DNA of 64,000 nucleotides from a virus: IMG/VR virus record IMGVR_UViG_3300044646_001937, positions 140,455-204,454 of that record; one strand, written 5' to 3'. The position numbers and the translations under genes are program-made. The notes under the pieces were generated by a model. It worked only from the letters and a program-made list of their open reading frames with translations, was not told where the DNA came from and ran no database searches. Every line of letters begins with the position of its first letter. Positions within the stretch are counted from its first letter, which is position 1. Positions 41,901 to 63,076 of the stretch are shown here, piece after piece.

Positions 41901-44900
41901 CTCTGACGGGAAATTAACTAGTGTCCCTGCATTAAAAATAATTACACCAATATCTACAGCTATAAGTGACAAGTATAGTGTATCGGAATGGTTGCACGGC
42001 TATCTAGAAAACAACACATTCAAAGGAGCATCTACGCGTACTGAAAAAGTTTATCGCGCTACGTACGTAGACCAATTTAATAATGTTACGGAAGAAGGCT
42101 ATGATGGTATCCCTACATATAAATACGCTAAAGACGATGTAGTTATACATTATATTGATGTTTACGATACGCAAAATCAGCATTCAAGAGAATCAGTACT
42201 TTATAAGTCTAAAGTAGACAACAACGACAATCCTATATATGACACAGACTATTGGGAGCCTATAACATTACCAGGAGTCAGTAAAGTGGACGGTCAACAT
42301 CCTATACTGCCTGTCCCAGTGATTACCTACTCAATACAACCACCTGACCCACCTATAGTCGTAGACATTATTGAAGAGCATAACCGCATAGGTTTTGTAA
42401 TTAAGCCCCCATATTTTAAAAAATATAAAAATAATTCAACCCAAATAGATGACTTTTTGAGTGCGAATTATTATGACGGAGGAATGGCAAAAGACAGTCC
42501 ACTGGTATTTAGAGCCAATAAATCAATAGGTCTCACAAATCACAAATCACCAGAAGCTCAAGGAATAAGCCTTGAATCAATGCTGCCCACCCTGCGCTTT
42601 AAGTACCCCGCAGCAGGTATAAGCACTGTACAATTTAATAGAAATAATTCAAGTACTTTATTTGCATTTGATAAATACATTGTAGCTGGAGATAACTTAT
42701 ATATAAATGCACCTGGCCAACTTCCAGCTTTATCTAAAGGCTATACTATAAAAAGTATTAGTACGTTGCAGAACGGTTTGTGTGTAATTGAATATTATGA
42801 TGATTTTGCCACGGCGGATAAAAGCTCTTTTGAATTTAACTTTATATTTGGTGGAGGTCATAGCGTATATGTGACTCACAATCCTATAAATGACCACGTA
42901 TTGGTGCCAGACACTACAAAATCAAGATATGAGACAAACACATATTGGTTAAATAACTGTCTTGAAGACGAAGAGTACCTCATAACTATAAGACTAGATA
43001 ATGGCTGGAAACCTAAATTGCAAAAAATAGAAAACACCTACACTAAGGTATATAGAGTTAGAACAAAGAAAATAACGCCACCAGCGCCAGCAATTGATAG
43101 TATTCAATATGACGGTAGTGTATTTAAATTAAATTTTACTTACGGCAGCAGTCCTGTACCCTTGTATTACAATTGGCAAGAGTTGTCCGCTAACGATTAT
43201 ACAGAACTGTCGACCACTGTAAGACAATTACCATTCTACTACGGTATTTCGTTTGCAACCGTAAACGAAACAGTTCTCGCAGGAGGGGAGGCAACCATCA
43301 CAAGGACTAGGTACCGCACAGGATCCTTGGCCCCCATATACAAAGATTATGCAACAAATTACTGGCAGCAGTTGCTGGATATGCGTCAGGACATTACATT
43401 TTCTGCATATAGATGGCCTACAGACGCAGAATTACAGGATATTGAAAGTCAATATAGTCCTGCCGTCTGGCCTACAGGTAAAGAAAGTTATTTGAATGAT
43501 CGAGCTGATAAATGGTTTAGTAGATACAAAATACCTATAGATGCCTACGCGAATAAATCTACGCCAGGCAGCGTGACTGATGTAAAATACTACACCCCAA
43601 ATGCGTCATATCCTTATGATGAACAAGGGGTAATGGCGTTATCTACACAAACAGACATTTACTCAAGCAATCCTATGCTCTTGTCTCCTGTAGGTATTAA
43701 AAACGATCCTAGAGGGCGAGCGTATTTAACAGCATACCGAAGATACTGGGATGATGAGAATTATAAAATTCCCTCTGACGCAATTAGCTCGCTATCTAGT
43801 AATACTGATACATTTGGAGAAAGACCCACACATATACCCATATATTCTCCAACAGGTAAGACATTGCGTGACGATAATAAAGTTTGCGGTTTATTGTACA
43901 CTTCTGACGAGTATTTTAACAAACATCCCTATTATCAAGATTATGCCGATTCAATATACCTCTCAATATATAGGGCACCGTTTAGACGAAAAGCTGCCAA
44001 CAATGCCGTAAATAACATACATGCAGATATAGATTCATCTGGGTATAGCTACAGTCATATTAACTTTCCTGTACGCGCAACACTCGGAAGCTCAAAATAT
44101 ACTAACAATCAACAGATTACTTTAAACTCAAATGGTTTTTATAGTGTACCCTCGATTTCCTCGATCCCCAACTCAGATACTACATACTACAGCTCTTCCT
44201 ATGTAGACACATATTTTGGTATACCTGCTGCGATTAATTATTTTTTAACTACAAACATTGAAGATTACATTCCGTTATATAGAGAAACAGCCGTGGTTAG
44301 ATCAAATTTAAGTGAGGACCTACTGGAGTCTCAACGTGTACTAGCTGTAGTTAAATATGATAACTCTCCTTACACAGAAATTATATCCACAGCTTTTCCT
44401 GGGCTAGCCTTCAATAGACGTAAAGATTACGAAGCTTCAGAAATAGATGTACCCATCACAGATAATTTAAATTTATTTTCAGAAATAGCTGCAAACTACT
44501 ACACGGATTGGTTTGCAAATGACCTCTATGTACCACCCAAGAAAAAATATTCAAACTTTGAAACCTTTTCTGCTATAGAGCAAGAGGAGTTTCACGCTGT
44601 GTCAGATTTTGCGGTACTTAAATCTTATAATAGAAATATTCCCACATATGCAGTTTATGTCTGCCAGTCCCAGAATATTTGCTGTGTGATGTCTTCAGGC
44701 AATTTAAACGGTATAAGTAAGAACGAAAACGACAATCCGTCAGATACCTTTTCGTCGCTGCTGCCTTTTGAGCATAGACCTTATATCAGTAATCAGACAC
44801 CCTTTGTTGAGTGGGGATTTAGGCGTAACTACTTTCAAACTCTTGACTATGGCTATAGTAAAAGCTTTCTTGACTACGACAGGTACGTTTGGCCCGTTCT

Positions 44901-46788
44901 ATCTGAAGGAAATATCAAAGATCCCAATAGGACAGGAGCTGCTCCAACATACCCAGCGTCACACATGTCACCCATCGAATTGTCAGGGGCATACGACGCA
45001 TCATGGTCCGCCAGAAACACCATACAGCTAAACAAGAATATTTCAGGAGATATGGTTGGGGAAAACATTAAAAATTTAAAAATGTCTCAACCTACCCATG
45101 TAGCAATTGACGGGCAAGGTAACATATATATTTCTGATACTGGAAATAAAAAGATTAAATTACTCACCAGATCAGAAACAATTAAAGACCCCAACCTGCA
45201 CGAGAGTGATATTAAAAATTTAATTAATTATACTTCGGCAAGAACGATAAGTACTTTAGATGAGTTTCCTGGACAGCTTGAAGTTAGTGACGACGGAAAC
45301 ACCATCACCTTCCTAGCTGGCGGAAAACTATACCGCAGAATCAAGGGTGTAAATTATTTAATTACAGGTGAAAATTTAAATACCACCAATAAAACACCTG
45401 CAAAAAATTATCAATGGCCTGTGTACAGTGCCGCATGGGGTAGGTCTCTACCGGAAGACTACGGTAAAGAATTTATATCTAGCTTTATTCAGACAACTAA
45501 TGGAAGTACAATATTCTTCAGTAACGGTAGAGGCAAGGTTGTAAAAATTAATTGCATGACTAATTTAGACAAAATTGCTTATGTAGAATACTCTTTTGAC
45601 AACATAACATTTACGAAATATTCCGAAACCACAGGCATCCCAGTACCTAATGTGCAGTTAGGTACAGCTATACCTATGTATTTTAGGACTGTGTCTACGG
45701 ATAATGTACGAAGCACTACAGTACAATTAACTACAGATCCGTATTTAAAGGCAAACGAAAGTGTAGCCGTATCCTCAGTGACAGCGGCCCTGCAATTTAA
45801 AGCAACCGATTATTTTACGCATAAAGACGGGACTACACAACGCAGGGCAAGATATCTAGTTACACCACCATCAATAGTTACATCACTTTCCGAAGGGGAA
45901 AATTTTCCTAAAAATATAATAACGCTCGTGCAATCAACTAGAGTTACATCTGTAAATAATAGCGCATTTGTTATCGCCGAAGCTAAACAAAGATTAAACT
46001 ATGTACAAAAAATAATGCGGCTAAAATCTACTACAGCAGCAGATCTAGTTAAACTTAAAAAAGAAGAAGAGTTGGCTCTTAAATTAATTGCAAGCCCTTC
46101 ACTGGATGTAAGAACCTCCGATGCATGGAGATTCAGAAATGTTTCTTCTGCCCCTATATCTGGAATTTCTAAATATGATTTCCTCGAAATGGATGTAACG
46201 ATTAAATTTACGGCAAGCAGGAATACCGGTATCACCTCAATAAACCCAACGCCAATACCCTACACCGATTACATCGTAATCATCAAAAATATTACAAAGA
46301 ATAGGGTTTTTGAAATAACAGGCGACGCAACTAAATATAAATATATTAAATCAAAAGAAATAGATCCTGCGTCCGGGGTTATAACATACGTTGTCAGATT
46401 CTACAACGACACCTACGTTACCGAGAGTAATCCAAGATTTAAACATTGGAGAACACGCCCGATATTCACAGATTCAGAGCCTCCAGCGTACGAGTACCAT
46501 AGAGTGCCTAGACAATTAAAAAAATTCGGCAATTACACCAGTCCAATAAATCTAGGCCAATCTTACATTAGACCGGCAGACGCAGCGCTTGATAGAGGTT
46601 GGTATTCTAATGAGTATGTGGAGTTTTCAGGTCCTGATTTTTCTAAAGGAGACACTTTAGAAATATATATTGTTCCGGACAAAACAAAATACTCTAAGCG
46701 AGCAAGTTACACACCATATACTATAACTATGAGTGACGCAACTAACCTGCAGCTTACTGGAGCTAAAGGACAATCAGTGGTTTACTAG
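35938..46788 (+). CDS. Giant 3616-residue tail protein with fibronectin-III-like and NHL-like segments
   Basis: The largest gene in the window (10.85 kb). It opens with a strand pattern of fibronectin-III type ('KVEYSFDGVTWTEL'), and further such units occur near residues 1100-1200. Long Tyr/Asn/Thr-rich strand regions of unknown family fill the middle. Near residue 3050 is an NHL-repeat-like stretch ('PTHVAIDGQGNIYISDTGN'), hinting at a beta-propeller blade. Near residues 3340-3390 a Lys/Glu-rich helix occurs. No transmembrane segment or protease motif is visible. It is likely a major host-contact or tail-side structure. In-frame upstream stops support the chosen ATG. Confidence 0.75.
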   Translation: MEKTSLIEYKLKSYLGGVLAKLKYVNSPLTPLTKVEYSFDGVTWTELSSQAFSNTIIAQDPVTPYIYTIERIFVPLAEYRDYLISFRLTNTVATGAQSIPGIGRRGGPPEALVVKPTLTRLPYMNRYTNVAFSVFSTLSSTVVGKMIVTFEYDPMLDGGSGSTPITDVLISLDSRQTWLQPDTLEVFKTTKQSNVVETYVAGDTNRTFSGIGTFVRVSYTLPQGGDFTYLQDSPIYYKTINFAGESPAIKIVTKLPLVIVTSPNNPDYPILNKIESSDWYFGSNQEVRRDLQVYLELPESTGFGEPYQLQSTQLLDLAELTPVSVTPPEGQQALKNIDLTVTTVGDTFRRGERLKIYSQANPSKIWFIAQVTSNSRVNPVLSLDILEKYAVTPYSISVNSFANGADEFHKNTPLWNIHNHPINYPLLDLYVGDQLRDDDVFVSGRTLSFFRKDISFNDIYFYATIISKDINIGKLTIKITSKSDCLQNNCHNNQSFLTSWEITPIMTSADTFPTEANDWVIEPLYPVLEARYNLAEASNPNSIIEKGTAGLTIIKDDNNIPTLGYFTIRGISDIETYALNMTYGPAGAEFLSRLSPTSTIQCSLLSIAQKVTFLPIRTYTEAVYTNEFVSWWYLSKLTPLVSQTEIKFKLPLAPNDNSTIAVAYRKIVRTEIENIEGITTPSSLYEGRVVGELNFVALQSTPTTDALREITFPIDEATHLNNEGRRVEISYEISFLKIIRNLTSNNEELLTELNKLKDKIPGDIVKTTISIPGAQPIDFVLGRELLNPTAIGLTLVYNDQLPGYEYLDFKDTQAQDITLKQTDFYRSTIEYSTNQGGSWRHVLKPGIPAYDEKFSQVNTTYYQNIGADIITFTEENYNVYPAGTLLSGETIQDYTYVVEALDAFSVRISKPQKASAFSPAVKSSVLAKYTGTSTTYTRFQKGTAIMYVDKYLDYTTDLPVKIANTTLTGAANIIAQRPYMLGNVKNYNQSTGRLEIVITSITTSPVSGALDNLSSWEITHALRKKTYIDKFISILYGYTNNYFSSASNTKRPTIYVGNLAEAQAYSIWLRTSNTLYGKGPIIKLSGTTTALPSSPPTVDVKLTIAGFDIDISPGFAEKAWIQAPQAAIQGYEYAIISGNVWYDVDVTPTWNTLNNGVITGLTQNAEYMLSFRSVSANGAGPATVPKVYKTASLPLKITSLTGFMPLIGITEIVLPSEIVLSAIPYTIEYELEQGYYDKLGRYIDDPTLAGKTGILADNSLLNLYTDLTATAIFNETQINSIRTYFVKLRCVNEVGQGPWSDTFILSVLSPEIRPVKVKWSPGPSCILIDEIGLMDTELKLNLTRGTRPAEIKTLNSAVRWQYAKVVTVAPRILTDNRIYYTGNEQKYTDAGQEEPVIHLKNALAAVEWQNIVSNTIPMEDEQSVILLFRAANAAGGIEMTDVLGYDGAYSRFTYNPIEPYGFASKYFQDGPEFDTYHRTKSIYQYDTDRPNRCYGALFKKTSFSANCPLPRLAYNKYGRYIKYQEELFSPFFNLEERTIKTQPFLDFELSYVKNYEQLGGINDTVYTSPMLTCTELPCELGVSSSVQVSAATEDILAPNDFVIITDSLTGGVAHRYALAYVKSVDEIDESNKTKSGYKIFWLNEETTAAALGSGFMSPWPEGLPTSVYNVVDSSSFRLHTLSELQPKFAKDPWTITSGYLPVSNTPGIIAAFKTTSNLFSGALPFRDADGKDFWSVTLNMSMTNYFENTYVGIKVYKYNNNPNQYATNTLTLLGESRFFRSEEPDINVFAQYNAVFFIPEEGIIFDIYDEIYLEIFACIKPNTLTHPPGTLSTQHTVTIKFDSSSYLSTTIPKDFKYRDQMVTFDVLRIGRLIPSNRAFYTPSAGARSYINKYAASVGFLIQGNVNWASLRQSLEQMLPVYRPYDLFPAQSPIAIEQGLVGDSWSQGNSYELVTLVPSRYYTDPLTPSIVNGSVFKVNGNTPAEYSLFSDGKLTSVPALKIITPISTAISDKYSVSEWLHGYLENNTFKGASTRTEKVYRATYVDQFNNVTEEGYDGIPTYKYAKDDVVIHYIDVYDTQNQHSRESVLYKSKVDNNDNPIYDTDYWEPITLPGVSKVDGQHPILPVPVITYSIQPPDPPIVVDIIEEHNRIGFVIKPPYFKKYKNNSTQIDDFLSANYYDGGMAKDSPLVFRANKSIGLTNHKSPEAQGISLESMLPTLRFKYPAAGISTVQFNRNNSSTLFAFDKYIVAGDNLYINAPGQLPALSKGYTIKSISTLQNGLCVIEYYDDFATADKSSFEFNFIFGGGHSVYVTHNPINDHVLVPDTTKSRYETNTYWLNNCLEDEEYLITIRLDNGWKPKLQKIENTYTKVYRVRTKKITPPAPAIDSIQYDGSVFKLNFTYGSSPVPLYYNWQELSANDYTELSTTVRQLPFYYGISFATVNETVLAGGEATITRTRYRTGSLAPIYKDYATNYWQQLLDMRQDITFSAYRWPTDAELQDIESQYSPAVWPTGKESYLNDRADKWFSRYKIPIDAYANKSTPGSVTDVKYYTPNASYPYDEQGVMALSTQTDIYSSNPMLLSPVGIKNDPRGRAYLTAYRRYWDDENYKIPSDAISSLSSNTDTFGERPTHIPIYSPTGKTLRDDNKVCGLLYTSDEYFNKHPYYQDYADSIYLSIYRAPFRRKAANNAVNNIHADIDSSGYSYSHINFPVRATLGSSKYTNNQQITLNSNGFYSVPSISSIPNSDTTYYSSSYVDTYFGIPAAINYFLTTNIEDYIPLYRETAVVRSNLSEDLLESQRVLAVVKYDNSPYTEIISTAFPGLAFNRRKDYEASEIDVPITDNLNLFSEIAANYYTDWFANDLYVPPKKKYSNFETFSAIEQEEFHAVSDFAVLKSYNRNIPTYAVYVCQSQNICCVMSSGNLNGISKNENDNPSDTFSSLLPFEHRPYISNQTPFVEWGFRRNYFQTLDYGYSKSFLDYDRYVWPVLSEGNIKDPNRTGAAPTYPASHMSPIELSGAYDASWSARNTIQLNKNISGDMVGENIKNLKMSQPTHVAIDGQGNIYISDTGNKKIKLLTRSETIKDPNLHESDIKNLINYTSARTISTLDEFPGQLEVSDDGNTITFLAGGKLYRRIKGVNYLITGENLNTTNKTPAKNYQWPVYSAAWGRSLPEDYGKEFISSFIQTTNGSTIFFSNGRGKVVKINCMTNLDKIAYVEYSFDNITFTKYSETTGIPVPNVQLGTAIPMYFRTVSTDNVRSTTVQLTTDPYLKANESVAVSSVTAALQFKATDYFTHKDGTTQRRARYLVTPPSIVTSLSEGENFPKNIITLVQSTRVTSVNNSAFVIAEAKQRLNYVQKIMRLKSTTAADLVKLKKEEELALKLIASPSLDVRTSDAWRFRNVSSAPISGISKYDFLEMDVTIKFTASRNTGITSINPTPIPYTDYIVIIKNITKNRVFEITGDATKYKYIKSKEIDPASGVITYVVRFYNDTYVTESNPRFKHWRTRPIFTDSEPPAYEYHRVPRQLKKFGNYTSPINLGQSYIRPADAALDRGWYSNEYVEFSGPDFSKGDTLEIYIVPDKTKYSKRASYTPYTITMSDATNLQLTGAKGQSVVY

Positions 46789-51358: not shown

Positions 51359-51757
51359 GGGGGTGAACCGGTTTCGACTGTGTATGAGCCCCTGCAGCAG
51401 CATGTAGAGGAAGCCTGGTTGGCCTCTTAAAAAATCTAGGTAAAATAAACGCAAAGTCTGAATTTGACTTCGCCCCTTCGGTAGCAGAAGCGGATGCATT
51501 CCTCAAGGCCGCCGGCTTTGTGGATGCTGAGCTCCTCGCTGCATAAGGTACAGACTGGATGCTATTAAAAGTCTGTAAATGTTAGTAGCTGGTGCTTGAA
51601 GAAAAGAATTGCCGCTCAAGCAGAACAAATAACAATTCAAGAGAATGCGTACAGTTTGTCTTCCGACGATACGCATTCTTACAAAAGGAAGGCTAAGCAT
51701 GTAGACGCTGTAGGATAAGTATACAGGACAGGGGTTCGACTCCCCTCACCTCCACCA
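51359..51757 (+). ncRNA. ssrA: Transfer-messenger RNA (tmRNA), one-piece, phage-encoded
   Basis: The 399-nt RNA has all landmarks. The 5' end GGGGGTG pairs with CACCTCC before an encoded ACCA (3' end at 51757). The D-loop-like GGTTTCGACTG lies at 51370-51380. A T-arm GGGGTTCGACTCCCC sits near the 3' end. The resume codon is probably GCA at 51451-51453, and the tag frame runs 31 codons, AKSEFDFAPSVAEADAFLKA then AGFVDAELLAA, to TAA at 51544-51546. It ends in hydrophobic LLAA as needed for ClpXP-type recognition. A long pseudoknot-rich middle follows. tmRNA rescues stalled ribosomes and tags their products. A phage copy is rare, and the tag is long (E. coli has 10 tag residues). Confidence 0.95.
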
Positions 51758-54836: not shown

Positions 54837-55385
54837 ATGAAGAGTAAAAAACAAATATTGAAAGATGAGAAAGCTCCTGTTCTTGTACTTATAGCCCTGA
54901 TCGCTAAAGAATATGGCGAAGAGTGTTACCACTGGGAGCCTCTTGTTTTAAAAGCAGAATTACAGGAAGATTTTGAAGTAGAGTTGTCGGACCTGCAATC
55001 AGATAAAATACAGGCAGGTATTACAATCCTGACTACAGATCAGTACGAAACAAACGTACCTGTTTTTGAAACTCTCAACTATCTGCTAAACAATCAGCCT
55101 GACGATCTGGAAGATTTTAATCCACTAGAACCTGAAGAGCTGATTTGCGGACTGACTGAAGCATATTTGATTAGAGGTGAAAAATTAGACTTTTCTCCTG
55201 AAGTTAGAGTTTATGCTGGCCTGGTCTTCCATGAATATGGTATGCATAAGCCTCCTACATTGTTTCCAGAAGCAATCATGAAAGAGCGTGAAGGAAACGA
55301 TGACTCAAAGAACGAGGCTCTGCAGGAGCTGTTTGATGAAAAAATTAAACTTATTAAGAAATACCTAGACAATGCACAGCTATAA
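54837..55385 (+). CDS. Hypothetical acidic helical protein
   Basis: A 182-residue acidic protein (start ATG at 54837; a TTG at 54801 is upstream in frame). It is helical with 'CYHWEPLVLKAELQED' near residue 30. No family is recognised. The end overlaps the AAA+ gene by 14 bases, so both are likely co-translated, and it could be an adaptor of that ATPase. Confidence 0.65.
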   Translation: MKSKKQILKDEKAPVLVLIALIAKEYGEECYHWEPLVLKAELQEDFEVELSDLQSDKIQAGITILTTDQYETNVPVFETLNYLLNNQPDDLEDFNPLEPEELICGLTEAYLIRGEKLDFSPEVRVYAGLVFHEYGMHKPPTLFPEAIMKEREGNDDSKNEALQELFDEKIKLIKKYLDNAQL

Positions 55386-56484
55386 TACACTTCTTGCAAA
55401 TATTTATGAAAAGCCTAACGCTAAAAGGCTAGAGCATCTGTATAACATACTTTTTGAAACCATACCCACTACAGTAACCTTTTCTGATAACTTTGAGATA
55501 GATTCTCTGAAAGCCCTCGAAGAGCACTTTGACATCTTTACAAGTGATATAACGGTGGTAGGGTCTAGGCTTGTAGAAGAAAACGTGTGGGTAGGTAAGA
55601 AGGGTACTTATAGAGATATACTGCTACATTCTTCGTATAGATCCCCTGACGGAGATCATCCTATGCTGGGTGCAGTATACGGCAACAGTGTTAAAAAAGA
55701 AGATATCGACAGTATGCACGTAAGCGTTAGAGCTGCGTGCAAAGACAGAGAAGAGGCCAAACGGTTATGCGATCTTTTGTTGCCGTTTAAACTGCAACTT
55801 AAGAATAAGATCTACATGCTTACAGCTAGTTATGGAGAGCTCAGTTTGTCTCCGCTACCCACAATGGACGTTAATAGCAATTTAGCTCTAAACTATGGTT
55901 CAGAGTTTGAAGCTTTCCATGAAAAGATTATGGATAGCCTTAAAACAAAGACATCTGGACTGTATCTGTTCAGTGGGCCTCCAGGCACAGGCAAGTCATC
56001 CTACATCAAATATCTCACAACATGCGATATTGGACGTAAGATAGTATACATCCCAGGAGGCATGATTGAGCAGCTAGTCTCTCCCGAAATGGTTCCATTG
56101 CTAGTCGAGAACAAGAATATTATTCTAGTTATCGAGGACGCTGAAAAAGCTCTAATTTCTAGAGAGGTATCAGCAAACACAGATATGGTGCAGACTGTAC
56201 TCAACCTTACGTCAGGCTTCCTTGGAGATGCTGCCAATGTATCCATCATTGCCACATTCAATACATCTAAAGATAACATTGATTCGGCACTATTGCGTAA
56301 AGGTAGGTTAAAGCTCAGCTATGAGTTTGATAAGCTTTCGCTAGATGACACTATTAAACTGGCGGAATCTCTTGGATTAAATACCTCCGGAATTACCGAA
56401 GGCATGACTCTTGCAGATATTTATCACATGGAAGAGCAACCAGGATATGAGAAGCCTGAAGAAAAGCGCGTAGGGTTCTTCTAA
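55372..56484 (+). CDS. AAA+ ATPase (BCS1-like)
   Basis: A 370-residue protein with an N-terminal domain (about 1-175) that has no recognised fold and a C-terminal AAA+ core. The core has Walker A GPPGTGKS (202-209), Walker B 'IILVIED' ending at E255-D256, sensor 1 'IIATFNTS' (about 293-300) and an arginine-finger-like 'LLRKGRLKL' (R309-R312). The order and 'RKGR' match BCS1/CDC48-type ATPases. It lacks the transmembrane helix of mitochondrial BCS1. It probably remodels a protein substrate. The gene ends convergent with the terminase, their stop codons overlapping by four bases. Confidence 0.85.
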   Translation: MHSYNTLLANIYEKPNAKRLEHLYNILFETIPTTVTFSDNFEIDSLKALEEHFDIFTSDITVVGSRLVEENVWVGKKGTYRDILLHSSYRSPDGDHPMLGAVYGNSVKKEDIDSMHVSVRAACKDREEAKRLCDLLLPFKLQLKNKIYMLTASYGELSLSPLPTMDVNSNLALNYGSEFEAFHEKIMDSLKTKTSGLYLFSGPPGTGKSSYIKYLTTCDIGRKIVYIPGGMIEQLVSPEMVPLLVENKNIILVIEDAEKALISREVSANTDMVQTVLNLTSGFLGDAANVSIIATFNTSKDNIDSALLRKGRLKLSYEFDKLSLDDTIKLAESLGLNTSGITEGMTLADIYHMEEQPGYEKPEEKRVGFF

Positions 56485-58202
56485 CCCTCTATTGCATCTG
56501 GTCCAGCTGAAGAGCTTGGGCCAATAAGACCTGCGTCACCTACAGCCATATAGGCGGCGCAAACAGCAAACACCAGACTGTGCAGCGCATCGTCTGGTTG
56601 CTTTGGGTGGTGATCATATATCAGCTCCTGTCCAAATAGTCCATCTCTGACCTCAATGAATACATTCAATATATCCTGCATATATTCTGAAACGTCGTTC
56701 CATTGAGGAAAAACTATTTTGCCTGCCTTAAGCTGTCTGATTACAAGAGATATTACATCAGACCTATGCAAGACCCATCTATTTTGACGCCAGTCATAAG
56801 CACCAGCGTCAAAGTACTGGATAACCTTGCTGCGTCTATAGGCAGCCATTTGCGAGCGTTGAGGGCTCGTCAGCTCACAAAGCTTAATACCCCTAAAAGG
56901 GTCAGGACCACTGTCCGCGACACAGAAAGCGTTAACAGCATTAGCTCTCCTGGCAATGTCTTTAATGTGCGCCTCATGGTCGTGTCCCCTGTATATCTTA
57001 GAAAAGAATACTTCGTACACTCCATCGCCACGCATTGCCCCAAGCGTAGCTACAGTTCTAGACTGCGCCATACTCACACCCCAGTCTACACCCATAGTAT
57101 ATAGCTTATACTTGGTTTTATTCTTACTCAAAATACTGAGTTTAGTTTCATCGTTATTTTCAAACTGAGGCCCTAGAGTACATAGCTTTACAAGCTCCTC
57201 TTGCGTAATAGGTTTTGAACCTATATCGTAAGTAAGCCCAAAAGTCTCGTTCATTACAGTTTTAAGTTCATATTTACCACTATGAACTTTCTCATAAATT
57301 TCTTTCCACTCTTTAGGGTCTTCGTTGAAATGCGGAAGAATAGGCTGTGCTAGATGATAGCCGGTAATCAGATAGTCTGATGGGTTCATGCTTACCCATT
57401 CACCTATCCTGCAATCTATTCTTTTAGAGCACTTGGAGCAGCTAAGCCCATGAGGCTGCACCATCTTAAGAGGGTCGTTACCTTCTGTAAGCGAATTCCA
57501 ATGGTTGCAAGCCTCACACTTCATCATCCACTCCAGCTGATTGGAAGTCTTCCATATTCTATGTATGGTATTAGTACTATCCAGCGGAGTGCCTGCAAAA
57601 ATTTCTCGCTTATAAGGACTCATTGCCATTGTTTCCTGAATAATCGGGATTTGATCATACTGGATATCCTGAACCTCGTCGTACACCACACAGTCTACGG
57701 CAGGTCCACGAGTTCTGGTTGCATCATCCTTAACATACCTAAACAAAACACTACTATGCGTATCGTCTAATATCTTTTCAAAAACATCATTTTTAAACCA
57801 TCCTTTGACTAATAATTCTTTGATTTTAGGACTCTCAAATCTTGGGGGCAGATAGTTACTAGAGAAATATTTGGTAGTCAGCTCCTGAGGACCAACATAC
57901 ATCATTTTAAAATAATTCCACCGGATTAGGTTAAGACATATAAAATTAGATAATAAGGTAGACTTTAGCGTTTTACGACTACACTTTAAGATTAGTTTTT
58001 GAGGCATATTGTCATAGATATGCTTCAGCATCGGGAAATCCTCCAGCTTCTGGAGTCTTCCCTCATTGTCGTAGAGGTAATTCTCTACAAAGTGAGAGGG
58101 AGGTAGTACCGAAAAAATTAACTGGCGGGCAAGAAATGTGGACTTCGCATTGTTTTTGCGAAGTAATTTCTCAATAGTGTCTTTAACTAAATGGGTCGTC
58201 AT
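56481..58202 (-). CDS. Terminase large subunit with a zinc-ribbon-like insertion
   Basis: A 573-residue packaging motor (start ATG at 58202; a TTG seven codons upstream is less likely). The ATPase has an atypical Walker A KCSRKTLKST (73-82), Walker B CVVYDE (D175-E176) and a 'FAGTP' coupling segment (about 202-206). Two Cys pairs (C229/C232 and C255/C258) form a zinc-ribbon-like insert, as in GpA-type terminases. The RNase-H-like nuclease has D373 (VDWG), D430 (VADSG) and D537/D538 (PDDALHS). It cuts concatemers and drives DNA into the head. It is on the opposite strand to the tail genes. No small subunit is recognised next to it. Confidence 0.9.
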   Translation of the reverse strand: MTTHLVKDTIEKLLRKNNAKSTFLARQLIFSVLPPSHFVENYLYDNEGRLQKLEDFPMLKHIYDNMPQKLILKCSRKTLKSTLLSNFICLNLIRWNYFKMMYVGPQELTTKYFSSNYLPPRFESPKIKELLVKGWFKNDVFEKILDDTHSSVLFRYVKDDATRTRGPAVDCVVYDEVQDIQYDQIPIIQETMAMSPYKREIFAGTPLDSTNTIHRIWKTSNQLEWMMKCEACNHWNSLTEGNDPLKMVQPHGLSCSKCSKRIDCRIGEWVSMNPSDYLITGYHLAQPILPHFNEDPKEWKEIYEKVHSGKYELKTVMNETFGLTYDIGSKPITQEELVKLCTLGPQFENNDETKLSILSKNKTKYKLYTMGVDWGVSMAQSRTVATLGAMRGDGVYEVFFSKIYRGHDHEAHIKDIARRANAVNAFCVADSGPDPFRGIKLCELTSPQRSQMAAYRRSKVIQYFDAGAYDWRQNRWVLHRSDVISLVIRQLKAGKIVFPQWNDVSEYMQDILNVFIEVRDGLFGQELIYDHHPKQPDDALHSLVFAVCAAYMAVGDAGLIGPSSSAGPDAIEG

Positions 58203-58358
58203 AACCAAAAAACCAAACAGCAACAGAATAAAAAAAGAATAGAAAATACATCCGTTGATCTATATAACTTTTTTGATACCTCCTTTGCCACTATGATAAG
58301 TATCTTCAGTGGCAAGCCTCCTGGCAATAAAAAACATTATAGGGTCTACAAAAAATAA
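58191..58358 (+). CDS. Possible small ORF overlapping the divergent terminase start
   Basis: A 55-residue frame (MGRHNQKTKQQQNKKRIENT...) starts 12 bases inside the terminase gene on the opposite strand and fills the divergent gap. It is basic and Gln/Lys-rich at the start. There is no Shine-Dalgarno site and no promoter directly upstream, and an 8-bp inverted repeat (TTGCCACT/AGTGGCAA, 58285-58292 / 58308-58315) sits inside. It may be only the terminase leader read on the wrong strand. Confidence 0.25.
   Translation: MGRHNQKTKQQQNKKRIENTSVDLYNFFDTSFATMISIFSGKPPGNKKHYRVYKK
58336..58341 (-). promoter_or_regulatory. Candidate -10 box for the terminase gene
   Basis: TATAAT on the minus strand (plus-strand ATTATA). 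A leader of about 125 nt would follow before the ATG at 58202; it contains an 8-bp hairpin (58285-58315) and an AGGAGG downstream of that hairpin. The -35 is poor. Confidence 0.35.
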
Positions 58359-58373
58359 TAACTATGCTATAAT
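58345..58373 (+). promoter_or_regulatory. Promoter for the AAA+ cassette operon
   Basis: TCTACA (58345-58350), a 17-base spacer with TG at the extended position, and TATAAT (58368-58373). The ATG of the first gene (58384) is 10 nt past the -10 box. No terminator or second promoter is seen until 63040, so one transcript can cover all genes to 63031. Confidence 0.65.
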
Positions 58374-58383
58374 AGTTGTTATT

Positions 58384-58542
58384 ATGAGTAGAACTATCAG
58401 GAAATATCAAATAAAAGATAGGCGTAATCGTTATAAAACTAACGAGAAACTAGACCTTAAGGGTAGATATTATACGGATGTAGCCAAATCCCATGATAGA
58501 AAAATCAAAAAGAAGGGGCTACAAGAAGAAGACGAAGATTGA
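58384..58542 (+). CDS. Small basic protein, first gene of the cassette
   Basis: A 52-residue, very basic protein (MSRTIRKYQIKDRRNRYKTN...) with an acidic tail EEDED. No family is recognised. I chose the ATG at 58384, just after the promoter. It overlaps the double AT-hook gene by 50 bases in another frame, so both must be translated from one message. A nucleic-acid-binding or regulatory role is possible. Confidence 0.6.
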   Translation: MSRTIRKYQIKDRRNRYKTNEKLDLKGRYYTDVAKSHDRKIKKKGLQEEDED

Positions 58543-58993
58543 TGTTGCGTCTGAACCTGTAGCCCGTAAACGGGGAAGGCCCAAAGGGGCCAAGAACAAA
58601 CCTAAGCAGCCTATAGCTCATACTGAGCCTGTAGCTGTTGAGGTTCGTAAGAGAGGCAGACCAAAGGGAGCCAAGAATAAGCCTAAGGCTATTGCTCCTG
58701 CTATGGTGATAAAGGTTAAAGCTAAACCTGCACCTGAGGAGATTAGGGTAAATAAGAAAGTTGAGCAGGTGGATGAGCATCCACTTTTTGCTGCAGTCAA
58801 ATGGCTGGAGAAGCATATGCATCCTTCCCAGTCGGCATATTACGCCAAACGAGCCGCTAGAGCGGGCGCAACGTTGCATAACGCAATGCTTGCCGACATC
58901 CTTGGATTCTTCAACGTCCAGGAAACAAACATACTTAAACAAGTAAAAAAGAATAACTTCATAGCAACATTCGCAGACAATGAACTTCATTAA
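58493..58993 (+). CDS. Double AT-hook DNA-binding protein
   Basis: A 166-residue protein with two identical AT-hook motifs, KRGRPKGAKNKPK at 26-38 and 53-65, each with the GRP core that binds the minor groove of AT-rich DNA. A Lys/Pro linker (about 66-85) leads into a helical domain (about 95-166) of unknown fold. It overlaps the upstream gene by 50 bases and the AAA+ gene by 14. It may compact or mark the AT-rich phage DNA, or deliver the ATPase complex to it; this last point is inference. Confidence 0.78.
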   Translation: MIEKSKRRGYKKKTKIDVASEPVARKRGRPKGAKNKPKQPIAHTEPVAVEVRKRGRPKGAKNKPKAIAPAMVIKVKAKPAPEEIRVNKKVEQVDEHPLFAAVKWLEKHMHPSQSAYYAKRAARAGATLHNAMLADILGFFNVQETNILKQVKKNNFIATFADNELH

Positions 58994-60581
58994 CAAACTA
59001 GCAAAATATAGGGAAGCATCGTATCCGGCGGTATTCGTACTTACTCACGAGGAGTCCAGACTTTGTGGTGAGATTATGCATATACCTCCAGCAGATGAGA
59101 AAAGCCCTGAAGTTACAGTGCATGAGTGGGATGCTCAAAAGGGTCTTGTATATAAAAAGGGACCTAATAAAATAAAACACCCCGGCGATACTGTGGAAAG
59201 CACTACAGCGCTGGAATATATACAGAGTTTTAACGCAGCAGATAATATTTTTATACTGAAAGATTTTACTCCATTTCTGGATAGGCCATTAAACGTCCGT
59301 CTTTTAAGAAACAGCTGGAATATCCTTAAAGCTAATCGAAATATGATCGTTTTCAGTGGTCATAAATTTGCTGTGCCTGGAGAGCTTCAAAAAGAGATAC
59401 AGCTACTAGATTATACACTGCCTGATAACAAGGCTATCTCAGAGCGTCTCACATATATCTTGGATTCTGTGAATAAAGCCCGAAATGAATTGGATAAGCC
59501 GCCGCTTGATGTAGATAAAGATATCTTTGAGTCTGCTGTGGAGGCAGCCAAAGGTATGACCTATATGGAGGTCGAGAACGCCTATTCTATGGGCTGGCAG
59601 TCAGTCAAAAAGATTAACGATAAATTCGTAGATGTTGTGTTTCATGAAAAGATTGCGCAGCTTAAGAAAAATGGGCTGCTTACATACATGGAACCTAACA
59701 TCGACTTCAGTAACGTTGGCGGTTTGCATGGATTAAAAACGTGGCTAAATACACGCAAGGACGCTTATTCCGAGGAAGCTCGCCAATACAAGCTACCTCT
59801 TCCAAAGGGTATGCTTCTGGCCAGTGTTCCAGGTACTGGCAAGTCATTGATATGTAAAGCAGTTGCAAAAGAGTTTAAGTGTCCTCTGTTTGCACTAGAC
59901 CTGTCCAAGGTGTTTGACTCGCTTGTAGGTAACAGCGAGAAAAACATGGGTGAGGTAATCAAGACGATTAACGCTGTAGGTAAATGTGTAATCCTGATCG
60001 ACGAGATCGAGAAAAGCTTTAGTAACAGCGCAGTCAGCGGTTCTGGAGATAGTGGTGTCAGTAGCCGCATCTTTGGCACTTTCCTTACATGGCTAAACGA
60101 CCGTGATAACCCAGCGTTCATTGTGGCCACAACAAATAATCACACACTGCTTCCGGCTGCACTTATTCGTAAGGGCCGTTTCGATCAACTGTTCTGGCTA
60201 GATTTGCCTACAGCAGACGAGAGGAAGGAGATCTTTAATGTGGTTATTGCAAAGTATGGGCGAGATCCTAAGAACTTTGCTATCAAAACACTGGTTGCTG
60301 GCGCTGATAATTTCACAGGTGCTGAGATAGAGGAGGTATTCAAAGATGCATTATATAAAGCGTATCACGCTAAAGAAGAAGTGGCAGATACTCATGTTTT
60401 AGAGGTACTATCGGAATTTATTCCTTTCGCAGTATCCCACGAGCATGACCTGAAGACTATGCGAAAGCAGGCTCAGGGTAAACTTGTAATGGTTACAACT
60501 AAAGGTGATCCTGTAGCTGACGTACAGAAAAACATGCGCAAGTTAAGCATTGCAATTGGCGGCGAAGAAACTGAAGACTAA
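58980..60581 (+). CDS. AAA+ ATPase, Ycf46-like
   Basis: A 533-residue protein. Its N-terminal part (about 1-240) has the layout of Ycf46-like proteins: an alpha/beta domain and helices. The AAA+ core starts with 'VGGLHGLKTWL' (about 249-259) and has Walker A SVPGTGKS (282-289), Walker B 'ILIDE' (D341-E342), the family mark 'GDSGVSSRIFGTFLTWL' (356-372), sensor 1 'VATTNN' and 'IRKGRFDQLFWLDLPT' (R397-R400 as finger). Ycf46 is widespread in cyanobacteria and plastids, but related ATPases occur in other bacteria and phages. It should act as a ring-shaped remodelling motor with the genes downstream. ATP binding and hydrolysis residues are all present. Confidence 0.88.
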   Translation: MNFINKLAKYREASYPAVFVLTHEESRLCGEIMHIPPADEKSPEVTVHEWDAQKGLVYKKGPNKIKHPGDTVESTTALEYIQSFNAADNIFILKDFTPFLDRPLNVRLLRNSWNILKANRNMIVFSGHKFAVPGELQKEIQLLDYTLPDNKAISERLTYILDSVNKARNELDKPPLDVDKDIFESAVEAAKGMTYMEVENAYSMGWQSVKKINDKFVDVVFHEKIAQLKKNGLLTYMEPNIDFSNVGGLHGLKTWLNTRKDAYSEEARQYKLPLPKGMLLASVPGTGKSLICKAVAKEFKCPLFALDLSKVFDSLVGNSEKNMGEVIKTINAVGKCVILIDEIEKSFSNSAVSGSGDSGVSSRIFGTFLTWLNDRDNPAFIVATTNNHTLLPAALIRKGRFDQLFWLDLPTADERKEIFNVVIAKYGRDPKNFAIKTLVAGADNFTGAEIEEVFKDALYKAYHAKEEVADTHVLEVLSEFIPFAVSHEHDLKTMRKQAQGKLVMVTTKGDPVADVQKNMRKLSIAIGGEETED

Positions 60582-60599
60582 CAACTAACTACTAAACAT

Positions 60600-61604
60600 A
60601 TGACAAGCGAATACAAAATTACTGAAACACTGCAGAAGTACTATGACAAGGTTTTCCAAGACGGAAAGCTAGTAAACATCCACATTGGCATGTGGGGCAT
60701 GAGTCATAACCTTGAAGAGCAAGATATTAAAATAGATTCAAAACTGCCTGAGCTTGTTAAGCTGGGCAAAAAGATGCTGATCAAGCTTCCTGTATACAAC
60801 AAGTTCAAAAACTTCGAGCAAAAGATCCGCAAGTACTTATATGTAAATTCCTTTGACTTCCCATTGGTGAGTCAAGCGCACTTTGTCCCAAAGGCAAAGT
60901 ATATCGAAGTGTATACCAAACTGAATGAACTGCGTACGGAATACATGAAGATGGTAGACGAGTTCATTGAAAAGTATGAGGATTACAAGAAAGAGGCTAT
61001 TGAGTTTTACCAGGAAAACCAAGCAACCGTAAGCATATCTGACCTAGAAAAACTCTATCCGTCAGAGGCAGCATTGCGTAAAAAGTTCTACTTTGAAATT
61101 GTATCGTTTGAGATTGCTCTTCCTGCAGAGTTTACAGAGTTGAACTTACAGAATGAGATCAACCGAGAGCTCCTTGACAATGATGCCAAGAAGCAAGCAT
61201 TGCAAAATTACAAGCAGCAGTATGATAAGCAGATTACCACGCACATGGCTAAGATTGGTGACTTTGTAAGTGATGTCACTAATACCTTGCGTAGTAAGAT
61301 TGTAGAGCATTGCTCTGTAGCTTTAACCAAGATTCAGGAGAAAAAAGTTGTGTCAGAATCAAACATCAGAACGCTGCTGAAGCATATCCAGGAGTTCAGG
61401 GATATGAATTTTGTCGACGATAAGACAATCGAGGCAGAGCTCAACAAGGTTGAAGGTCTCTTGACTGGTGGTAAAGACTTGGCGACAGACAAGGACGCTA
61501 TCAGTCTTTTGCAGCAGCATTTGACAGGTGTAGTTAAAGAAGCAGAAAACCTCACAGACGTAGCAAACGTGTCTGGCGAATACTTCAGAAAATTAAGCGT
61601 ATAA
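60600..61604 (+). CDS. DUF3150-like protein
   Basis: A 334-residue, mostly coiled-coil protein. The N-terminal half fits the DUF3150 pattern: 'NIHIGMWGMSHNLEEQDIKI' (26-45), 'LPELVKLGKKMLIKL' (49-63), a turn 'FDFPLVSQAHFVPKAK' (85-100), then a long Lys/Glu helix (about 105-150). The second half (about 180-320) is helical with a 'KQALQNYKQQYDKQITTHM' region. DUF3150 genes often sit next to AAA+ (MoxR-type) ATPases in phages and bacteria, so it is probably their partner. It starts 18 bases after the ATPase stop. The function of DUF3150 is not established. Confidence 0.7.
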   Translation: MTSEYKITETLQKYYDKVFQDGKLVNIHIGMWGMSHNLEEQDIKIDSKLPELVKLGKKMLIKLPVYNKFKNFEQKIRKYLYVNSFDFPLVSQAHFVPKAKYIEVYTKLNELRTEYMKMVDEFIEKYEDYKKEAIEFYQENQATVSISDLEKLYPSEAALRKKFYFEIVSFEIALPAEFTELNLQNEINRELLDNDAKKQALQNYKQQYDKQITTHMAKIGDFVSDVTNTLRSKIVEHCSVALTKIQEKKVVSESNIRTLLKHIQEFRDMNFVDDKTIEAELNKVEGLLTGGKDLATDKDAISLLQQHLTGVVKEAENLTDVANVSGEYFRKLSV

Positions 61605-61605
61605 T

Positions 61606-61905
61606 ATGCCCTGGGATAACGACGACAATAATCTAACCGACCCTCCAAACTACGACATGTTGACTATCAGATTTAGGGGAGACAACCATGACGTAGTCTT
61701 ACCCTATTGCGAGGTAGCAAACGGCGACATCACTGAGATTGAGGATAACTTGATCAAGGTGGCAGTAAACGATAAGAAGAAAAATGTGCTGAAGCTGCCA
61801 TTTGCAGATTTCGTAAAGCTGATAGAGGAGACATTTGATATTAAAGATATCGTAAAACTAATGGTTCAAAAAGCAGGCAGTTACGACAACGTCACAGTAT
61901 TATGA
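61606..61905 (+). CDS. Hypothetical protein of the AAA+ cassette
   Basis: A 99-residue acidic protein, alternating strands and helices, with 'FADFVKLIEETFDIKD' (67-82) as an amphipathic helix. No family is recognised. It starts one base after the DUF3150-like gene and overlaps the DUF1257-like gene by ATGA (61902-61905), so it belongs to the same operon and likely to the same complex. Confidence 0.7.
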   Translation: MPWDNDDNNLTDPPNYDMLTIRFRGDNHDVVLPYCEVANGDITEIEDNLIKVAVNDKKKNVLKLPFADFVKLIEETFDIKDIVKLMVQKAGSYDNVTVL

Positions 61906-62291
61906 GTCACAGTGTAAACATCAAAACACAGTTCAAGAACATCACCACTCTGCTAGAGCAGTTTAAAAACAAGGGGTGGACGTTAAAAAACGATACCAAA
62001 TGCAACACATATCCCTCAGATCCTCGTAGAGATGAGATTCATAAATATGTAGCCAAAAACCCACATCCTAATGGTTATGATGTGGGTATTGGTATAGACG
62101 CAGATGGAAGCGCATATTTTGTGTGTGACTTCTTTGACAGGTCTATAGAAAGGCAGCTAGGAGAAAACCTGAAAGATATAAAACAAGGATATAGCCTGAC
62201 TGAGCTGAAAAAAGCCTTTCGCAGAGAAGACATGCGTTGTAAGGTTAGCGAACTAGCTACAGGTGAACTTGTAGTTGTTGCAGAAGCATAA
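61902..62291 (+). CDS. DUF1257 / Ycf35-like protein
   Basis: A 129-residue protein. The start 'MSHSVNIKTQFKN' and a strand pair 'GYDVGIGIDADGSAYFVCDF' (58-77) match the DUF1257 (Ycf35) layout, in which an N-terminal 'MSH....T....' is followed by 'YDIGF.......Y...AD'. It lies three genes after the Ycf46-like ATPase, and DUF1257 is commonly found with DUF2997 and AAA+ ATPases. Biochemical function is unknown. The overlap with the upstream gene indicates coupled translation. Confidence 0.68.
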   Translation: MSHSVNIKTQFKNITTLLEQFKNKGWTLKNDTKCNTYPSDPRRDEIHKYVAKNPHPNGYDVGIGIDADGSAYFVCDFFDRSIERQLGENLKDIKQGYSLTELKKAFRREDMRCKVSELATGELVVVAEA

Positions 62292-62293
62292 TT

Positions 62294-62584
62294 ATGGAAA
62301 TTATTACAGACGAATCGTTTGACGCCATCAAAGTAAAACTGGCGCGTTCTTTGCGTGAAGAGTTGCTTAAAGATGCGCTAACCCCTAATGGTGAAAAACA
62401 TGTAGATGTTGATGTCAGAATACCTCATGAGCTGTTTATGAGAGATCCTGACAAGCCAGGTACTGTACAGGCAGCTGCCACATACACTGTAAAAATGCCT
62501 GATGAGAAAAAGCATACAGTGTATCTACAGTTCAGATATGACAAGAATGGAAACTTGGTAAAGAACTCGATCACATATGTCTAA
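62294..62584 (+). CDS. Hypothetical protein of the AAA+ cassette
   Basis: A 96-residue protein with an N-terminal helix and a strand-rich rest ('VDVDVRIPHELF' then 'HTVYLQFRYDKNGNLV'). No family is recognised. It starts two bases after the DUF1257-like gene and overlaps the DUF2997-like gene by eight bases. The conserved place suggests a partner of those small proteins. Confidence 0.68.
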   Translation: MEIITDESFDAIKVKLARSLREELLKDALTPNGEKHVDVDVRIPHELFMRDPDKPGTVQAAATYTVKMPDEKKHTVYLQFRYDKNGNLVKNSITYV

Positions 62585-62777
62585 AAAAATGGTATTCAAG
62601 ATCAACAAAGACGGAAACGTGGTTGTTGATACTGTGCAAGGTTACGGTAGCGCTTGTATGGAGGCTACCAAGTTTATTGAAAGAGCGCTAGGTAAGGCCG
62701 ATGAGTCTACCAGAAAGACTACGGAAGAATATGAAAAGCCTGCCAAGCTAGATAATACGGAAAACATACAGCACTGA
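62577..62777 (+). CDS. DUF2997-like protein
   Basis: A 66-residue protein with the DUF2997 pattern: 'FKINKDGNVVVDTVQGYGSA' (7-26), then 'CMEATKFIERALG' (27-39), then a tail with 'KTTEEYEKP'. The Cys and the 'TKF.E.ALG' helix are the family marks. DUF2997 is regularly encoded beside DUF1257, and its function is unknown. It overlaps both neighbours (8 bases upstream, TGATG with the next). Confidence 0.78.
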   Translation: MSKKMVFKINKDGNVVVDTVQGYGSACMEATKFIERALGKADESTRKTTEEYEKPAKLDNTENIQH

Positions 62778-63031
62778 TGACAGTGATCTATATAGACAAG
62801 AATGGAGACATCCAAGGACTGGCGGATGACTTCATTGACAGGCTTGATCTAGGAACAAAACAAGTAGCCAGGGTATCTGACATTGAATGGAATCACAGCA
62901 CCAATCTGTGGGAAGCTAAAGATTCTGTGACAGGCGAAATTATCGCCAGCAACAGTGTCAGGGGTAACGTAATCAATGCTGAGCGAGCTCATCTCAATAA
63001 GAAGATAGAGCATACATTTGCTCAGCGATAG
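62777..63031 (+). CDS. Small cassette protein following DUF2997
   Basis: An 84-residue protein with 'VARVSDIEWNHSTNLWEAKD' (31-50) and a helical end with 'NAERAHLNKKI'. This layout ('R.S.VE.....W.A' followed by 'R..A...E..WL') recalls small proteins often found beside phage and plasmid genes of this kind; the family name is not certain. Start and stop overlap the upstream gene by one base. It ends 9 bases before a hairpin and closes the operon. Confidence 0.6.
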   Translation: MTVIYIDKNGDIQGLADDFIDRLDLGTKQVARVSDIEWNHSTNLWEAKDSVTGEIIASNSVRGNVINAERAHLNKKIEHTFAQR

Positions 63032-63039
63032 ACAATTAT

Positions 63040-63066
63040 CACATGAGGGTCCGACCCCCTCATGTG
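63040..63066 (+). terminator. Hairpin ending the AAA+ cassette operon
   Basis: A perfect 10-bp stem CACATGAGGG (63040-63049) / CCCTCATGTG (63057-63066) with a 7-nt loop TCCGACC, then an AT-rich tract lacking a long T run. It lies between the cassette and a new promoter-like TATAAT (63077-63082), which supports it as a terminator. Confidence 0.65.
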
Positions 63067-63076
63067 GTATCTATAT

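Follow-up and report, generated by a model that had tools for sequence, protein, structure and literature searches.

A conserved phage cassette centred on a two-domain Ycf46-like AAA+ ATPase belongs to a gene module of phages, plasmids and bacteria and may encode a remodelling machine

Near the end of the 64,000-nucleotide stretch analysed here (the window, which is the final 64 kb of the 204,454-base IMG/VR virus record IMGVR_UViG_3300044646_001937), nine genes on one strand form a cassette that encodes a Ycf46-like AAA+ ATPase, proteins of the DUF3150, DUF1257 and DUF2997 families, several further small proteins and a protein with two AT-hook motifs (Table 1). A prediction made from the letters of the sequence alone had proposed that families of this kind recur together in bacteria and phages, and that here they make up a DNA- or protein-remodelling machine used during infection. 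Locus surveys bore out the recurrence: the ATPase and its partners belong to a widespread and well-supported module which, as far as sequence comparison can tell, looks like one real machine.

All nine open reading frames (ORFs) of the original prediction were recovered at their positions in the ORF list of the window, and the overlaps agree to the base (14 bases at 58980, ATGA at 61902 and TGATG at 62775). This upholds one operon, and a single promoter is plausible. The cassette proteins may be made in equal gene dosage and form a single complex, as had been suggested from these overlaps. As homologies mostly begin at about ATG 58384, we placed the start of the first gene there, in agreement with the original prediction; this ATG is codon 26 of a longer ORF that begins with GTG. 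Directly 5' of the first gene, TATGNTATAAT or a near form of it is present in most related loci. Promoter-like matches in the region were not more common than in shuffled sequences and the motif was not enriched across the whole window, and the promoter call therefore rests on its conserved place. A 55-amino-acid (aa) ORF (window 58191-58358, + strand) ends in KKHYRVYKK just before the promoter, and this end is conserved in relatives. Because TCTACA lies inside the end of this upstream ORF, conservation of that hexamer may be coding; TATAAT lies past the stop. At the other end of the operon, hairpins of differing sequence follow p84 in a number of relatives, and no clear hairpin was found after p84 in the L025-L029 subgroup.

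Table 1. Features of the cassette, with window coordinates.
Feature	Position	Strand	Remarks
Extended -10 sigma-70-like promoter, putative	58345..58373	+	TCTACA-N17-TATAAT, TG before the -10; top match of the + strand scan
52-aa basic protein	58384..58542	+	Operon gene 1
166-aa protein with two AT-hook motifs	58493..58993	+	Lineage-specific
533-aa Ycf46-like AAA+ ATPase	58980..60581	+	Degenerate N-terminal and active C-terminal AAA domains
334-aa DUF3150 protein	60600..61604	+	Pfam match; predicted mostly helical
99-aa protein p99	61606..61905	+	Family seen in this phage lineage only; 27/28 loci
129-aa DUF1257 (Ycf35) family protein	61902..62291	+	Conserved MSH amino terminus
96-aa protein p96	62294..62584	+	This lineage only, not all members; 23/28 loci
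66-aa DUF2997 protein	62577..62777	+	Conserved Cys of the family (GxxC) present
84-aa protein p84	62777..63031	+	Unnamed core family, also in other phages and bacterial chromosomes
Intrinsic-terminator-like hairpin	63037..63069	+	Strong; 13 pairs

The ATPase is a classical AAA protein by its match to Pfam AAA (PF00004; 1.7e-27, 96.9 bits against a cut-off of 21.2) and by its Walker A, Walker B, sensor-1 asparagine and arginine-finger motifs. The catalytic residues are intact as had been claimed (SVPGTGKS at 282-289, D341/E342 and R397/R400; GTGKS occupies 285-289, DE 341-342 and NN 386-387), and they are conserved in relatives. At full length the protein matches PHROGs family phrog_8638 (5.4e-115), which is annotated as of unknown function. 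To the first reading we add a second AAA domain in the N-terminal half: this half aligns with the protein's own C-terminal AAA domain (hhalign probability 93.3%, E 2.7e-7, 160 columns), and its lack of a P-loop, together with LKDF at the position of the active half's IDEI, marks it as a degenerate upper tier. The active domain is closest, among solved structures, to the D2 domains of Cdc48-type proteins. The cassette ATPase thus resembles p97/Cdc48 in having two AAA tiers with the active domain nearest D2, but its upper tier is degenerate and its length only 533 aa, and the likeness does not imply a shared function. It also aligns over its full length with cyanobacterial chromosomal copies, none of which is a record named Ycf46; with this limit, it shares with the Ycf46 (Synechocystis slr0374)/Ycf35-DUF2997 set the same domain families and the same two-part ATPase layout.

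In seven relatives the ATPase gene is cut by inserts of ~0.8-1.1 kb that resemble introns and contain HNH (L032-L034 and L038) or LAGLIDADG (L035-L037) ORFs. The L032 insert lies after base 1020, at Walker B, as judged against a 99.7% identical uninterrupted copy, and that of L035 falls within Walker A, around bases 849-861. L032, with an insert, and L014, without one, are near-identical, and the joints are clean against uninterrupted copies. A search of Rfam gave no catalogued intron and no group I match at these inserts. We rejected the view that these seven broken-looking genes are simply dead, as intron-like inserts with endonuclease ORFs interrupt them. Mobile introns favour conserved, needed codons, and the siting of the inserts on or close to the codons for Walker A and Walker B fits a need for ATPase activity.

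The family assignments of the partner proteins were upheld, directly by Pfam for AAA, DUF3150 and DUF2997 and through intermediate relatives for DUF1257. DUF3150 (PF11348) was matched at 7.9e-11 (42.2 bits, cut-off 24.9) and DUF2997 (PF11211) at 2.1e-9 (37.6 bits, cut-off 24.1). The DUF3150 structure model was of low confidence (predicted local distance difference test, pLDDT, 68), too uncertain for a structure search, which was dropped. The 129-aa protein itself gave no Pfam match at E 1, including to DUF1257 (PF06868). When a profile of its family was run iteratively against 13,911 ORFs, the first round recovered chromosomal and plasmid DUF1257 proteins (1.4e-13 to 6e-4), neighbours of Ycf46-like ATPases on contigs of cyanobacteria (1.4e-13 to 6e-7) and, in Rhizobium phage RHph_I4, the protein annotated as DUF1257 (2.8e-5). 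As Pfam calls DUF1257 those of the matched proteins that were scanned (1.8e-22 to 1.8e-37, up to 128 bits), we assign the 129-aa protein to this family through these intermediates. The family begins with MSH almost everywhere, and in all surveyed bacterial loci that hold both genes DUF1257 stands immediately before DUF2997 among the module genes. The AlphaFold model of the DUF1257 protein is a confident alpha/beta fold (pLDDT 92.3) that had no match in the PDB (best E 0.3, template modelling score about 0.3); class IV adenylate cyclases, which appeared as weak PDB matches, were judged noise. In BFVD it matched one unnamed 147-aa viral protein (E 7.7e-6), equal in length to the RHph_I4 DUF1257 protein, an identity that was not confirmed. 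Three small proteins of the cassette had been called unrecognised. One of them, p84, represents a core family found far outside the lineage. The families of p99 and p96 were seen in this phage lineage alone, and searches with p99 gave no match elsewhere.

Because 39 distinct IMG/VR loci encode the cassette ATPase (44-84% identity) and the flanked loci keep the gene order, the cassette is not a chance grouping. The order AAA-DUF3150-(p99)-DUF1257-(p96)-DUF2997-p84 was unchanged, with AAA, DUF3150, DUF1257, DUF2997 and p84 all present, in each of the 28 viral loci with enough flanking sequence, and 23 of the 28 held the complete set of seven genes from AAA to p84. Some of these loci are near-copies; near-identical phage contigs recurred in three viral scans, and the viral sample therefore represents one lineage. 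A terminase large subunit gene adjoins the cassette upstream on the opposite strand, SbcD and SbcC genes lie downstream in this phage, and SbcC and helicase genes lie downstream in several relatives. From the fixed order and flanks we conclude that the cassette belongs to the core genome of this phage lineage.

Beyond the lineage, annotated phages of Rhizobium, Agrobacterium, Aeromonas, Pseudomonas and Rhodobacter carry an AAA gene, at least one other gene, and DUF1257-type and DUF2997-type genes, with p84 in three of them. None of the annotated phages checked yielded a DUF3150 protein, and a gene of ~210 aa between AAA and DUF1257 in other phages was rejected as a diverged DUF3150 (nothing by hmmsearch, hhalign probability <1%). 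A relative of the ATPase is encoded in 698 plasmid records, most of which are conjugative and come from Enterobacterales; the plasmid looked at in detail is IncC. IncC plasmid pM216_AC2 has an AAA gene followed by DUF1257-like and DUF2997 genes (L058 7554-9714), and the same AAA-DUF1257-DUF2997 triad is found on Paenibacillus, Bacillus, Planktothrix, Trichormus, Geminocystis and Vibrio plasmids. In Acidianus tailed spindle virus, AAA, DUF1257-like and DUF2997-like genes stand in a row; these are the weakest members, which joined only in iteration rounds 2 and 3 (8.8e-6 and 2.4e-6).

In cells, the ATPase relatives come from a narrow-alignment genome scan and are a sample, so that counts of these relatives are minima. 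Among Verrucomicrobiota, DUF3150, DUF1257, DUF2997 and p84 follow one another on one strand in 9 of 15 DUF3150-anchored loci (a tenth locus with DUF1257 is truncated), and in six of the nine the AAA gene also falls inside the fetched stretch, giving a five-part DUF3150>DUF1257>DUF2997>p84>AAA set. DUF2997-anchored loci of Bacillota and Planctomycetota include DUF1257 in 18 of 20 cases and AAA in 15 of 20. By comparison, the 14 control genomes held DUF1257 in one, DUF2997 in one and DUF3150 in none, and given this rarity the way in which loci were collected does not account for the association. The original prediction had named an absence of profile matches to these families, or neighbours not conserved together, as observations that would speak against it; both were looked for and neither was found. 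In the literature searched, we did not find the five-part module described across element types or DUF3150 mentioned, and two papers alone mentioned DUF1257 and DUF2997 together.

Cyanobacteria likewise have a Ycf46-like AAA gene beside DUF1257 in eight contigs of one clade, as in the phage, but their chromosomal copies lack DUF3150 and p84 beside the ATPase. The roles published for this cyanobacterial and plastid set are in CO2 use and stress, not in DNA (PMC7496141). Reading the cassette as an auxiliary photosynthesis gene set was dropped, as the module also occurs in hosts that do not photosynthesise, on plasmids and in an archaeal virus. These bacterial loci bear also on a redox or Fe-S linked machine, in which DUF2997 and DUF1257 would be substrates or carriers for the ATPase with a radical-SAM or ferredoxin partner that the phage would borrow from its host. 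Eleven loci from bacteria, archaea or plasmids encode a 4Fe-4S NrdG-like radical-SAM protein next to the ATPase or close by (by Pfam for three), Synechocystis has a DUF2997-ycf35-fed7 operon (PMC4284462), and the conserved Cys of DUF2997 and the MSH start of DUF1257 would fit such chemistry. However, the 4Fe-4S partner gene was not found in the phage record, which may be incomplete, or in the viral loci searched, and most Planctomycetota and all Verrucomicrobiota modules seen are without it, and we consider this explanation of the cassette quite unlikely.

The spread of the module would also suit a role in host takeover or counter-defence, with the machine taking apart a host complex such as a defence assembly: its carriers include phages, plasmids and other mobile elements, which all meet these defences in their hosts, and some Verrucomicrobiota copies have Eco57I-type methylase and kinase genes as neighbours. 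Yet the cassette is core rather than accessory in the phage lineage and its place is fixed, the families are kept in plastids and cyanobacterial chromosomes, and the PADLOC matches of the ATPase (IetA, TRIP13) cover the AAA domain only, with no protease partner. A takeover role is thus quite improbable. The IetAS defence system itself was rejected, as the similarity is confined to the AAA domain and no subtilisin-like IetS or other protease is present among the cassette proteins.

The adjoining terminase gene and the triad of the archaeal spindle virus could instead point to a virion-assembly chaperone, in which the ATPase and its partners would help head or tail proteins to fold or mature, in the manner of MoxR-VWA pairs. 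Such pairs (CobS-CobT, RavA-ViaA) resemble the cassette in joining an AAA+ motor to dedicated partner genes, occur also in phages (PMC7824862, PMC8651126) and have a reported or proposed role in the assembly of virions in Acidianus two-tailed virus and some jumbo phages (PMC7824862). The cassette motor, however, is of the Cdc48/FtsH-like classical AAA (PF00004) class rather than the MoxR class and no VWA gene lies within the cassette, on which grounds we rejected a MoxR-VWA pair. As the module or its triad is found also on conjugative plasmids and bacterial chromosomes, an assembly role is unlikely.

We tentatively favor, at somewhat under an even chance, a two-tier AAA+ remodeller with dedicated adaptors that would act on protein-DNA complexes during genome replication, recombination or end-processing. 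A ring ATPase with a degenerate tier and small dedicated partners is most simply read as a protein remodeller with adaptors. By analogy with p97/Cdc48, the ATPase would assemble as a ring and pull on its protein substrate; DUF3150, DUF1257, DUF2997 and p84 would be dedicated adaptor or co-chaperone subunits; and the machine would dismantle or reshape protein-DNA assemblies as the phage genome is replicated, recombined or end-processed. A remodelling machine is a sensible class for an AAA+ motor with dedicated small partners, and the original interpretation, partly supported, was right in kind.

DNA-bound substrates are favored because neighbors of the module are repeatedly replication, recombination or segregation genes. 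Besides SbcCD, these include DnaB and PolI in RHph_I4, Ku and ParB in Firecracker, PD-(D/E)XK exonuclease, clamp-like protein, ligase and integrase genes in Verrucomicrobiota, and, close to the triad of Vibrio and Planktothrix plasmids, genes of the ParA/ParB type. On pM216_AC2, away from the triad, the genes run CbbQ-type AAA-...-ssb-bet-exo-DUF3150-VWA, the last being CobT-like (L326 2841-10834); as in the cassette, DUF3150 is near an AAA+ ATPase and recombination genes, but this module differs in its AAA_5/CbbQ_C class ATPase and its VWA protein. In SXT, deletion of bet, exo and neighboring core genes with IncA/C orthologues cut transfer at most tenfold (PMC2791158).

The AT-hook protein would be a lineage-specific DNA tether. 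It has two RKRGRPKGAKNKP motifs (RKRGRPKG) with GRP cores at residues 28 and 55, and two or more GRP cores are present in 36 of 38 related loci. With this repeated core and its basic flanks, DNA binding is predicted. Searches of the other phages and of chromosomal loci gave no relative of it, so the proposal that this protein gives the motor its DNA target lacks support beyond the lineage. At most it would add DNA targeting locally, and it cannot explain the general function of the module.

Several observations weigh against a DNA-directed remodeller. Outside this lineage the module lacks the AT-hook protein, and the ferredoxin fed7 and the NrdG-like partners at other loci point to redox chemistry, not DNA. 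As phage neighborhoods are modular and the terminase gene is equally close, the DNA role rests on association. In addition, 46 of 110 scored tree rows of Ycf46-like ATPases had no partner among the matches listed, including a large, mostly proteobacterial group. Linkage to partners was strongly clustered on the tree (13 changes against 43 in shuffles), which is indicative only, as this was a quick FastTree tree and some rows were fetched through partners.

Other features of the window and its relatives were recorded alongside the cassette. A second AAA ATPase gene (370 aa; window 55372-56484, + strand) lies beside the terminase gene and is conserved in the lineage. Its product is 93% identical to that of L017, compared with only 70% for the cassette ATPase, and exchange between related phages nearby seems likely. 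The longest ORF (3616 aa; window 35938-46788, + strand) lies in the presumed structural region. A transfer-messenger RNA gene (window 51359-51757, + strand; Rfam 148 bits; ARAGORN tag AKSEFDFAPSVAEADAFLKAAGFVDAELLAA) is present, as it is in relatives L034 (720-1129) and L038 (818-1224), and abiF RNA matches above the Rfam cut-off lie in related loci L032 (3583-3619) and L038 (3676-3713).

The families of the module were already known as DUFs, and p84 is a newly recognised, unnamed core family. A broader proposal, which we regard as possible but doubtful, is that Ycf46, Ycf35 (DUF1257), DUF2997, DUF3150 and p84 are parts of a single AAA+ machine, ancient in origin, that works for mobile-element genomes. 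In plastids and cyanobacteria the ycf genes would then be its reduced descendants, the phage cassette would be among the most complete copies, and DUF3150 would be a general adaptor that serves also the CbbQ-type ATPase. No function has been explained for Ycf35 and Ycf46, whose genes are conserved in plastids and cyanobacteria, and a shared operon in phages, plasmids, an archaeal virus and several bacterial phyla would turn these orphan families into parts of one machine. The IncC carriers are resistance plasmids, and an E. coli plasmid or Rhizobium or mycobacterial phages would provide tractable systems in which to find its substrate.

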